A model generated the notes under the pieces. It searched no databases, was not told the origin of the DNA, and saw only the letters and a list, made by a program, of their open reading frames with translations. From positions 620,001-684,000 of the forward strand of contig NZ_CP058910.1 of NCBI RefSeq assembly GCF_013415885.1: DNA of 64,000 nt, read 5' to 3'. Shown piece after piece: positions 56,420-58,481 of this stretch (positions are counted from its first letter, which is position 1; every line of letters starts with the position of its first letter). The DNA is from Halosimplex rubrum. GTDB lineage: Archaea > Halobacteriota > Halobacteria > Halobacteriales > Haloarculaceae. The translations under genes and the position numbers were made by a program.

Positions 56420-57610
56420 ATGACGAACTCGCGGGACCGGGCGTGGCTGGCGGCGATGGTGTTCGCCGTCCTGCTCGCACAGGTGCTGCTGTACCCGGGC
56501 GTCGACCGGCTGGTCGGCGCGCTCGGCGCGACGACGGATCTGGACGCGAGCATGTGGTTCCTCGCGGCGGAGTTCGCGGCGTTCGTCGCCTTCGCCGGCC
56601 TCTGGGGCGCCGCCAGCGACCGCGCCGGTCGACGGACACCGTTCATCGCCGCGGGCGCGCTGGGCGGCAGCGTCGGGTATCTCGCGCTCGCGCTGATCCC
56701 CGGATTCACCGCGCTCTCCTTCGAGGGCGTGCTCGCCGTCCGCGCGGCCCAGGGCGCCGCCACGATCGGCGCCTTCTCGCTCGCGATGACGATGCTGATG
56801 GACCTCGACGGGGGCCACGGACGCAACATGGCCGCCGCCGGTGCAGCTATCGGCGGCGGGACGGCGCTGGGCGCGCCCCTTGGCGGCCAGCTCTACGAGG
56901 TCGGCCCGTTCGTCCCCCTCTACCTCGCGAGCGCCCTGCTCGCAGCCGTCGCGGTCCTCGCGCTGGCGGTCGACGACCGCGCGCCCGCCGGCGGCCGCGA
57001 CTCGCTGGCTCGCGCCGTCGCGAACCTCCGCGGGACGCCGACGCTCGCCGTCCCCTACGCCTTCGGCTTCCTCGACCGGCTCACCGCCGGCTTCTTCGCG
57101 CTCGTCGGAACGCTGTATTTCAGGTCCGCCTTCGAACTCGGCCCCGGCGCCACCGGCCTGATGCTCGCCCTGTTTTTCGCCCCGTTCGCGCTCCTGCAGT
57201 ACCCGATGGGCATCCTCTCGGACAGGGTCGGACGCACCGCCCCCATCGTCGCCGGGTCGGCCTGTTACGGCCTGGTCGTGATCGGCGTCGGCCGCGCGCC
57301 GACGGTCGCGCTCGCCGGCGCGGGGATGCTCGCGGTCGGGATCCTCGGCGCGCTGATGTCGCCGGCGACGATGGCGCTCGTGAGCGACCTGGCCGACGAC
57401 ACCGAACGCGGTGTCGCGATGGCCGGCTTCAACGTTTTCGGCAGTCTGGGCTTCCTGGCCGGCGTCGTCGTCGGCGGCGGCGTCGCGAGCGCCTACGGCT
57501 ACCCCGAGGCGTTCCTCGTCGCCGGCGGCCTGGAGATCCTCGTCGCCGGCGCGACCCTGCCCGTGTTCCTGCGGCTGGACATCGGCCGGACCGCGACGTT
57601 CGCGGAGTGA
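56420..57610 (+). CDS. Major facilitator superfamily transporter
   Basis: 396 residues, twelve hydrophobic helices. The MFS loop motif is GLWGAASDRAGRRTPF (about residues 68-83) after helix 2, with a related loop ILSDRVGRTAPIV after helix 8. It would move a small molecule using the proton or sodium gradient; helix signature does not identify it as a nitrate/nitrite (NarK) carrier. The stop is followed within 4 bases by the 26-bp tandem repeat. Confidence 0.85.
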   Translation: MTNSRDRAWLAAMVFAVLLAQVLLYPGVDRLVGALGATTDLDASMWFLAAEFAAFVAFAGLWGAASDRAGRRTPFIAAGALGGSVGYLALALIPGFTALSFEGVLAVRAAQGAATIGAFSLAMTMLMDLDGGHGRNMAAAGAAIGGGTALGAPLGGQLYEVGPFVPLYLASALLAAVAVLALAVDDRAPAGGRDSLARAVANLRGTPTLAVPYAFGFLDRLTAGFFALVGTLYFRSAFELGPGATGLMLALFFAPFALLQYPMGILSDRVGRTAPIVAGSACYGLVVIGVGRAPTVALAGAGMLAVGILGALMSPATMALVSDLADDTERGVAMAGFNVFGSLGFLAGVVVGGGVASAYGYPEAFLVAGGLEILVAGATLPVFLRLDIGRTATFAE

Positions 57611-57613
57611 ACG

Positions 57614-57757
57614 GCGGCTGGGCGGTGCGGTGTGGAGCGGCGGCTGGGCGGTGCGGTGTGGAGCGGCGGCTGTGCGGTGCGGTGTGGAGCGGCGGCTGTG
57701 CGGTGCGGTGTGGAGCGGCGGCTGTGCGGTGCGGTGTGGAGCGGCGGCTGTGCGGGA
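57614..57757 (+). repeat. 26-bp minisatellite, five full copies plus part
   Basis: Unit GCGGCTGTGCGGTGCGGTGT followed by GGAGCG, starting at 57614, 57640, 57666, 57692 and 57718, with a partial copy from 57744. The first two copies have GGG where the others have TGT. 26 is not a multiple of 3, so the reading frame cycles and no repeat protein is made. It is directly after the MFS stop. Confidence 0.9.
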
Positions 57758-57780
57758 CAGTGAACGTACCGTGCGAAGCG

Positions 57781-57919
57781 CCGTGAGCGGAGCGAGCGCG
57801 GTTTCACCGGTCGCGACCGATGGGAGCGACCGGCTTTTTTGCCCCATCTTTTTCGAGGAGTCCTCCCGCAGCGCAGCCGTCAGGCTGCGCGAGGAAGGGC
57901 GACGACGAAAAAGGTGGTA
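57781..57919 (-). repeat. Palindromic intergenic element, copy C (inverted)
   Basis: On the minus strand the arms are TACCACCTTTTTCGTC (from 57919) and GAAAAAGATGGGG (to about 57842), around CTTCCTCGC, the apex GCAGCC-TGAC-GGCTGC and GCTGCGGGAGG. The next block is GCCGGTCGC...GCGACCGG (8-bp arms) and then CCGGTGAAACCGCGCTCGC, as in copies A and B. This copy sits next to the tRNA-Ser locus. Confidence 0.65.
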
Positions 57920-58056
57920 CGCCAGGACTGGGAGTGAGCGAACGCGCCGCGTTCGCTCACCTCGCGGGACGCAGAGCGTCCCGCGGTGTTTGAACCCGAT
58001 GCCAGACGGTCGCTCACTCCGTTCGTGCTGCGTCTGCCGTGATTCAAATCCCAGTC
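57920..58056. repeat. tRNA-Ser 3'-end fragments around two perfect hairpins
   Basis: 57920-57933 equals the 3' end of the tRNA-Ser gene (CGCCAGGACTGGGA). It is followed by two perfect hairpins, 57934-57960 (13-bp arms, 1-base loop) and 57963-57985 (10-bp arms, AGA loop), then TTTGAACCC (57989-57997), which is the next part of the tRNA T-arm. At 58043-58056 TTCAAATCCCAGTC is the same tRNA 3' part in the opposite direction. The two ends form a long imperfect inverted repeat. Confidence 0.7.
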
Positions 58057-58121
58057 GGCGACGATTCGGCGCTCACGATGGCGAGCACACGAGGTGCTCG
58101 CCGGGGTGTTCGCGACAGAAG

Positions 58122-58202
58122 CGCCAGGACTGGGATTTGAACCCAGAATCCCAAAGGGAACACGCTTTCCAGGCGTGCGCCTTACCGTTCGGCCATCCTG
58201 GC
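58122..58202 (-). tRNA. tRNA-Ser (anticodon GGA)
   Basis: 81 bases. Acceptor GCCAGGA pairs fully with TCCTGGC, discriminator G; D-arm GCC-GAACGGTAA-GGC; anticodon arm CACGC-CTGGAAA-GCGTG with GGA anticodon (reads UCC/UCU); long variable arm TCCC-TTT-GGGA typical of serine tRNA; T-arm CTGGG-TTCAAAT-CCCAG. All stems are intact and there is no intron. The CCA end is not encoded. AT-rich promoter core GCCCTTAACC lies about 30-40 bases upstream. Confidence 0.95.
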
Positions 58203-58276
58203 ACGCGTCTGCGTATCCGCAATCGGTCGGTTAAGGGCTTTCGTTCTGAGCCGGCAGTCGAGGTGGACGGCCGAAC

Positions 58277-58416
58277 CGTCAGGACTGGGAGTGAGCAAAC
58301 GCGAAGCGTTTGCGAACGCCGAGAGACGAACGGAGTGAGTCTCTCGGAATTTGAACCCAGAATCCCAAAGGGAACACGCTTTCCAGGCGTGCGCCTTACC
58401 GTTCGGCCATCCTGGC
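58277..58416 (-). pseudogene. Second tRNA-Ser(GGA) copy interrupted in the T-arm
   Basis: The first 67 bases (acceptor 5' strand to T-loop) are identical to the intact tRNA. Between T-loop and the 3' T-stem strand lie 59 extra bases (58290-58348) that form two hairpins: GCAAACGC-GAA-GCGTTTGC (58295-58313) and CCGAGAGAC...GTCTCTCGG (58319-58347). The 3' end then resumes (CCCAGTCCTGAC) with a C2-A71 mismatch. A promoter core GGTTAAGGGCTTTCGTTCT (58442-58460) equals that of the intact gene (58229-58247). Probably not functional unless the insert is removed. Confidence 0.75.
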
Positions 58417-58481
58417 TCAGGTGGAAATACCGCGGTCGGGTGGTTAAGGGCTTTCGTTCTCGGTCGGCAGTCGACGACCGG

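Follow-up and report, generated by a model that had tools for sequence, protein, structure and literature searches.

Within a 64,000-nt stretch of Halosimplex rubrum DNA (NZ_CP058910.1, positions 620,001 to 684,000; hereinafter referred to as the window), part of a complete haloarchaeal genome of 4.48 Mb, a second copy of the tRNA-Ser(GGA) gene is broken in its T-arm by 59 nt that fold into two hairpins. The locus raises the question of what this insert is and how the broken copy arose. On balance, we lean toward the interpretation that the double hairpin and another hairpin type found behind the intact tRNA gene (E1) are related small (approximately 55-200 nt), protein-less, hairpin-rich units targeted to the T-loop and 3' end of haloarchaeal tRNA genes.

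The split tRNA-Ser(GGA) copy

The following features were assigned to the split copy, with bit scores taken from R1, a covariance model of the double hairpin built from 19 examples.

58277-58416, minus strand: split tRNA-Ser(GGA) copy, a pseudogene; its 5' part and promoter are those of the ancestral locus
58291-58349, minus strand: 59-nt double hairpin between the T-loop and the 3' strand of the T-stem (R1, 81.2 bits)
58319-58347, minus strand: hairpin h1 of the double hairpin, CCGAGAGAC...GTCTCTCGG (fold, and covariation in alignment A1, partly circular because its seeds were picked for having stems)
58295-58313, minus strand: hairpin h2 of the double hairpin, GCAAACGC-TTC-GCGTTTGC (fold, and covariation in A1)
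58417-58470, minus strand: promoter region of the split copy; its last 52 nt are 100% identical to the tRNA-Ser promoter of the sister genomes G003 and G004

The split copy was identical to the intact gene up to the T-loop, followed by the double hairpin and then TCCCAGTCCTGACG. The T-loop TTCAAA (58350-58355) and the T-stem 3' strand TCCC (58287-58290) are exactly 59 nt apart, and the double hairpin folded with a z-score of -2.97 against 200 shuffles, which bore out the initial annotation of a T-arm split by 59 bases in two hairpins. The C-A mismatch reported there for the acceptor stem (TCCTGAC vs GCCAGGA, C2-A71) and the shared upstream promoter core (84% identity over 45 nt of the 5' flanks) were likewise found. 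Scored as a tRNA, the copy reached 27.2 bits, under the Rfam cut-off of 29 bits. The split copy is a pseudogene.

Introns at tRNA position 59/60 occur in some Crenarchaea, and the T-stem is able to pair around the insert, as would be expected if the splicing endonuclease removed an atypical intron to give a functional second tRNA-Ser. However, no bulge-helix-bulge restoring the T-arm on excision was found by motif search of three split copies, in line with the absence of a clear motif noted previously. Comparison of the locus among relatives, which revealed empty or filled sites in the sister genomes, also identified homologous split copies in other genera without tRNA parts: the G300 copy lacked 7 nt near its anticodon stem and variable arm, and the G285 copy lacked the entire 5' tRNA part. 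Further, most double hairpins sit outside any full tRNA, and the acceptor mismatch of the second copy is also at odds with splicing. Thus, the intron explanation was rejected as highly improbable, because a restoring bulge-helix-bulge was missing from the split copies and the rest of the tRNA had not been kept functional in G300 and G285. Disruption of archaeal tRNA genes by mobile DNA, with a second copy nearby, has been described (PMC3293823) and is similar in this respect, but in the present case there is no splicing site and the broken copy decays. Haloarchaeal tRNA copies split in the T-arm in this manner should be annotated as likely pseudogenes, not introns. Between the two options given in the initial annotation, a recent insertion was the closer one. 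On the plus strand, a kink-turn (GTGAGC/GCGA) was also considered and dropped by inspection for lack of a closing C-stem.

Units behind haloarchaeal tRNA genes

The insert in the split copy was not the only one at this locus. At 57920-57994, 3' of the intact tRNA gene, a repeat of the tRNA-Ser 3' end holds another double hairpin, different in sequence, at the same T-loop position; neither this double hairpin nor this third tRNA-Ser 3' end, which spans 57920-57997, had been reported in the initial annotation. The features from the intact promoter onward are listed below, where R2 is a covariance model of the E1 hairpin.

58203-58276, minus strand: promoter region of the intact tRNA; its last 52 nt have their closest counterparts in a different genus (G300, 88%; G285, 85%)
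58121-58202, minus strand: intact tRNA-Ser(GGA)
58057-58120, minus strand: spacer with a hairpin, GGCGAGCACC...GTGTGCTCGCC, between the tRNA and the E1 hairpin
57984-58056, minus strand: E1-type hairpin comprising an inverted T-arm copy, a structured core and a T-loop copy (R2 match at 57984-58053, 60.6 bits)
58041-58056, minus strand: inverted copy of the T-loop and T-stem 3' strand, GACTGGGATTTGAATC
57934-57988, minus strand: second double hairpin, 55 nt long, its T-loop position the same as in the split copy (R1, 84.9 bits)
57920-57933, minus strand: 14-nt direct repeat of the tRNA-Ser 3' end, TCCCAGTCCTGGCG
57907-57919, minus strand: original tRNA trailer with terminator-like TACCACCTTTTT, pushed away from the tRNA by the unit; in G004, where the site is empty, it adjoins the tRNA

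An E1 unit consists, in order, of a spacer hairpin, an inverted T-loop/T-stem copy, a core (..AGTCGCAGC..GACCGTCT..), and the T-loop and 3' end once more. Helix 2 of the core, which had no role in the choice of seeds, covaried: six of its seven pairs were changed on both sides, and 95% of the cells were paired. A U.U mismatch in this helix was kept in 51 of 65 sequences, and G-U pairs were rare.

Genome-wide counts of the units were obtained by covariance-model searches. R2 matched 235 of 242 haloarchaeal genomes, representing 70 of 74 genera. Among 118 E1 matches in four complete haloarchaeal genomes, which represent three families, 108 were positioned 3' of a same-strand tRNA at a distance of 29-421 nt, and no match was close on the 5' side; the T-arm sequence included in R2 does not account for this one-sided placement. 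Depending on the genome, 17-27 of the 44-57 tRNAs (about 30-60%) carried at least one E1. Seven of the ten remaining matches were on the same strand 2-20 kb downstream of a tRNA, and several of the ten had an SNJ2-like integrase gene roughly 115-355 bp away. Strong matches picked from 20 further genomes, covering nine other families, were downstream of a same-strand tRNA in all 20 cases. In the genome containing the window, a direct repeat of the tRNA 3' end was present within 600 nt downstream of 21 of the 46 tRNAs examined, mostly at approximately +93 to +136, and no inverted 3'-end repeat was found downstream (0/46). Upstream repeats of the 3' end were seen for four tRNAs, two of which corresponded to split copies.

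The double hairpins also form a family linked to tRNAs. A strict pattern applied across the class detected ten tRNA-linked double hairpins in 9 of 391 genomes, with differing stems in the same frame. R1 matched 124 of 146 genomes of the taxonomic family, with up to 30 matches per genome, and seven strong sites were present in the window's own genome. The tail of the double hairpin corresponded to the 3'-terminal 14 nt of its own tRNA with no more than two mismatches in 39 of 48 cases, compared with 15 of 1,930 comparisons with other tRNAs. A layout like that at tRNA-Ser was observed at L036 (G000:C1:3912370-3912830, minus strand), where an intact tRNA-Leu has upstream of it a split tRNA-Leu(TAA) copy whose T-arm contains a double hairpin and whose anticodon side has a second hairpin insertion. 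A third form of unit was noticed at nine loci (L110, L122, L067, L102, L095, L082, L079, L048, and L049), consisting of the 3' end of a working tRNA, an inverted copy of it, the h2 hairpin, and a direct repeat; in this form, pairing of the tRNA tail with the downstream copy could replace its pairing with the tRNA's own 5' end.

Placement nearly always downstream on the same strand, conserved covarying structure including the retained U.U mismatch, and near-universal occurrence in the class would all suit a functional RNA, namely a terminator or a processing or regulatory trailer of tRNA transcripts. However, selected RNA is usually far richer in G-U pairs: in the double-hairpin helices G-U was no more common than A-C (13 vs 18 of 1,429 cells), and it was rare in E1 helix 2 as well. 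About half of the tRNAs lack a unit, a sister genome has an empty site with a native T-run terminator, and cores are common to different tRNAs. A functional RNA is thus considered unlikely. Because G-U did not exceed A-C in the double-hairpin helices, folding at the DNA level or hairpin-templated correction is suggested, for which this scarcity provides modest evidence. The U.U mismatch kept in E1 helix 2 argues that such correction alone is not the whole story.

No Rfam family other than tRNA itself scored over its cut-off, and the units matched none. Literature searches, in which few subscription journals were covered, found no earlier description of tRNA-linked units of this kind.

Empty and filled sites and proposed movement of the units

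At the tRNA-Ser locus, empty and filled sites were found within one genus. In G004, the tRNA was directly followed by GTACCACCTTTTT; in G002 and G003, one E1 lay between the tRNA and GTACCACCTTTTT; and in G006 and G000, the E1 contained a double hairpin in its T-loop copy. As in tRNA-targeting elements, the insert was flanked by a direct repeat of the 3' end, and both site states occurred at a single locus. The E1 cores did not follow the tRNA type: a unit at tRNA-Leu in G002 was 98% identical to a unit at tRNA-Asp in G000, and a unit at tRNA-Arg in G130, which belongs to another family, was 92% identical to a tRNA-Lys unit in G000. Since E1 and the tRNA are unlike at position 52 but alike from position 57 onward, the junction falls within 53-56 (GTTC).

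Insertion of this type would keep the tRNA intact, with the unit behind it and then a second copy of the tRNA 3' end, an arrangement resembling the attachment-site repeats of integrative elements. We infer that site-specific recombination, with a crossover near the T-loop, mobilizes the units, and that they may act as folded single-stranded or cruciform DNA, not as RNA. The enzyme would probably be supplied by a tyrosine recombinase of tRNA-integrating elements of the SNJ2 type.

Several points weigh against mobile units of this kind. The units contain no gene for an integrase. The empty site might also be a precise deletion between the repeats, and ordinary double-stranded DNA could hardly form a circle of approximately 105-200 bp. 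A unit carrying a foreign 3' half would, by simple crossover, damage a different recipient tRNA, so that jumps between tRNA types would require either a mechanism of the duplication type or subsequent correction of the arms. In addition, searches by pattern, model, and BLAST revealed no carriers of the units among viral contigs, phages, and plasmids; at least 120 pattern matches were obtained in viral contigs, and the 80 examined by the model were all due to chance.

With respect to the split copy itself, the promoters were informative. Besides matching G003 and G004 upstream of the split copy, the locus has, upstream of the intact gene, 52 nt closest to those of the intact tRNA-Ser in G300 and G285, which also stand behind split copies. 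From these promoter matches, the resident gene appears to have become the split copy and an incoming segment to have given the working 5' half. On sequence comparison, this suggests that the present arrangement came from recombination between the locus and incoming tRNA-Ser DNA. Most likely, the incoming DNA came with a promoter of its own and a tRNA-Ser that a double hairpin had already split; on its recombination with the resident gene, the resident 5' half would have stayed joined to the hairpins as the split copy, and the incoming 5' half with the resident 3' end would have formed the intact gene. A crossover anywhere in the identical 5' tRNA part is sufficient, and a site-specific enzyme is unneeded for that step. 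The notion of a recent insertion therefore does not hold in the sense of a lone insertion into a spare gene, because it is the split copy that has the ancestral promoter and the intact gene that has a foreign one.

Should the units prove to be as proposed, about 30-60% of the tRNA genes in the four genomes would carry a structured passenger that duplicates their own 3' end, and nearly every genome of the class would have some. This would bear on how tRNA genes stay intact as a favored docking site of viruses and plasmids, and on the swapping of tRNA genes and promoters between species. It would also provide a direct route to seeking an undescribed recombination system.

Comparison with known integrating and mobile elements

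The 3' ends of tRNA genes are the usual attB, and SNJ2-type integrases use 13-14 bp at this end (PMC8371274). Larger integrase-bearing elements were also found at tRNAs that carry E1, so the units might be scars of viruses or plasmids that decayed at tRNA genes, with the hairpins as mutational debris. Against this, two large elements whose flanks were checked, L152 and L154 (integrases assigned by Pfam), end without E1-like hairpins at their own repeat, and E1 lies further out, beyond that repeat. Such an order is expected if the element entered a tRNA already carrying E1. Moreover, the same covarying structured core recurs on many tRNAs, and the scar explanation is quite unlikely. L152 (G000:C1:1563348-1576006) and L154 (G000:C1:4054812-4064059) are elements of approximately 12.5 and 9 kb, respectively, at tRNA genes; in both, an SNJ2-like tyrosine integrase occupies the far end, and there are open reading frames that appeared pleolipovirus- or plasmid-like by eye.

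Integrative elements of the SNJ2 type have the tyrosine integrases of pleolipoviruses and plasmids. An SNJ2-like integrase was detected in 15 of 16 genomes tested, including every unit-positive one but also most of the unit-negative ones, and its presence was too widespread to serve as a discriminator. Unlike SNJ2-type elements, the units are gene-less, approximately 55-200 nt long, and have conserved hairpins and an inverted T-arm copy.

PATEs are small, hairpin-bearing, gene-less repeats of Haloquadratum (PMC3119063). The units share with them their small size, hairpins, lack of genes, and haloarchaeal hosts, and an origin as IS200/IS605-derived two-palindrome elements, inserted beside TTCRAA by a Y1 transposase, would explain the presence of two hairpins, the lack of coding capacity, and the lack of a short target duplication at the double hairpin. 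However, E1 carries a direct repeat of its target. Y1_Tnp was unmatched in the unit-rich genomes G079, G229, and G058 (11, 7, and 19 E1, respectively), whereas the unit-free G066 had ten matches. A Y1 transposase was thus dismissed as the mover, not being required in three unit-rich genomes, and derivation from IS200/IS605 elements is very unlikely. Linkage to tRNA is not described in the passages of the PATE report that were consulted (PMC3119063).

Casposon insertion takes place close to tRNA 3' ends and duplicates 14-15 bp, and the casposase of A. boonei reads the T-loop sequence TCAAATC (PMC6614799). Their duplication starts 8 bp after TCAAATC (PMC6614799), whereas the repeats of E1 start at the T-loop and those of the double hairpin at TCCC. 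On this comparison of repeat position, no start 8 bp 3' of TCAAATC was seen, and in this respect the units differ from casposons.

Integron CALINs and attC sites resemble the units in that folded sites, without proteins, form arrays in which the core arms are inverted, the structured tip is variable, and the junction is near GTT. The unit core GTTCRAAT does not fit GTTRRRY, and the attC-like reading is a functional analogy only. In contrast to attC, the units are anchored at tRNAs and have no cassette genes. No mention of haloarchaea was found in the paper on archaeal integrons (PMC9668308). A broader proposal is that the units represent a class-wide, gene-less, folded-DNA recombination system, distinct from those of integrons, casposons, and IS605, with the T-loop as an attI-like dock, tandem accumulation of units behind tRNAs, and spread from one tRNA type to another; it is offered tentatively and seems rather doubtful.

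Two further observations were made. At L135 (G000:C1:2778898-2783297), at least 11 tRNA-like matches were present within 4.4 kb, with the other tRNAs scattered singly; this array is possibly borne by a virus or another element. In the window, a 26-bp repeat occurs in tandem at 57609-57762, in the interval that separates the tRNA-Ser unit from the end of an MFS-like gene.
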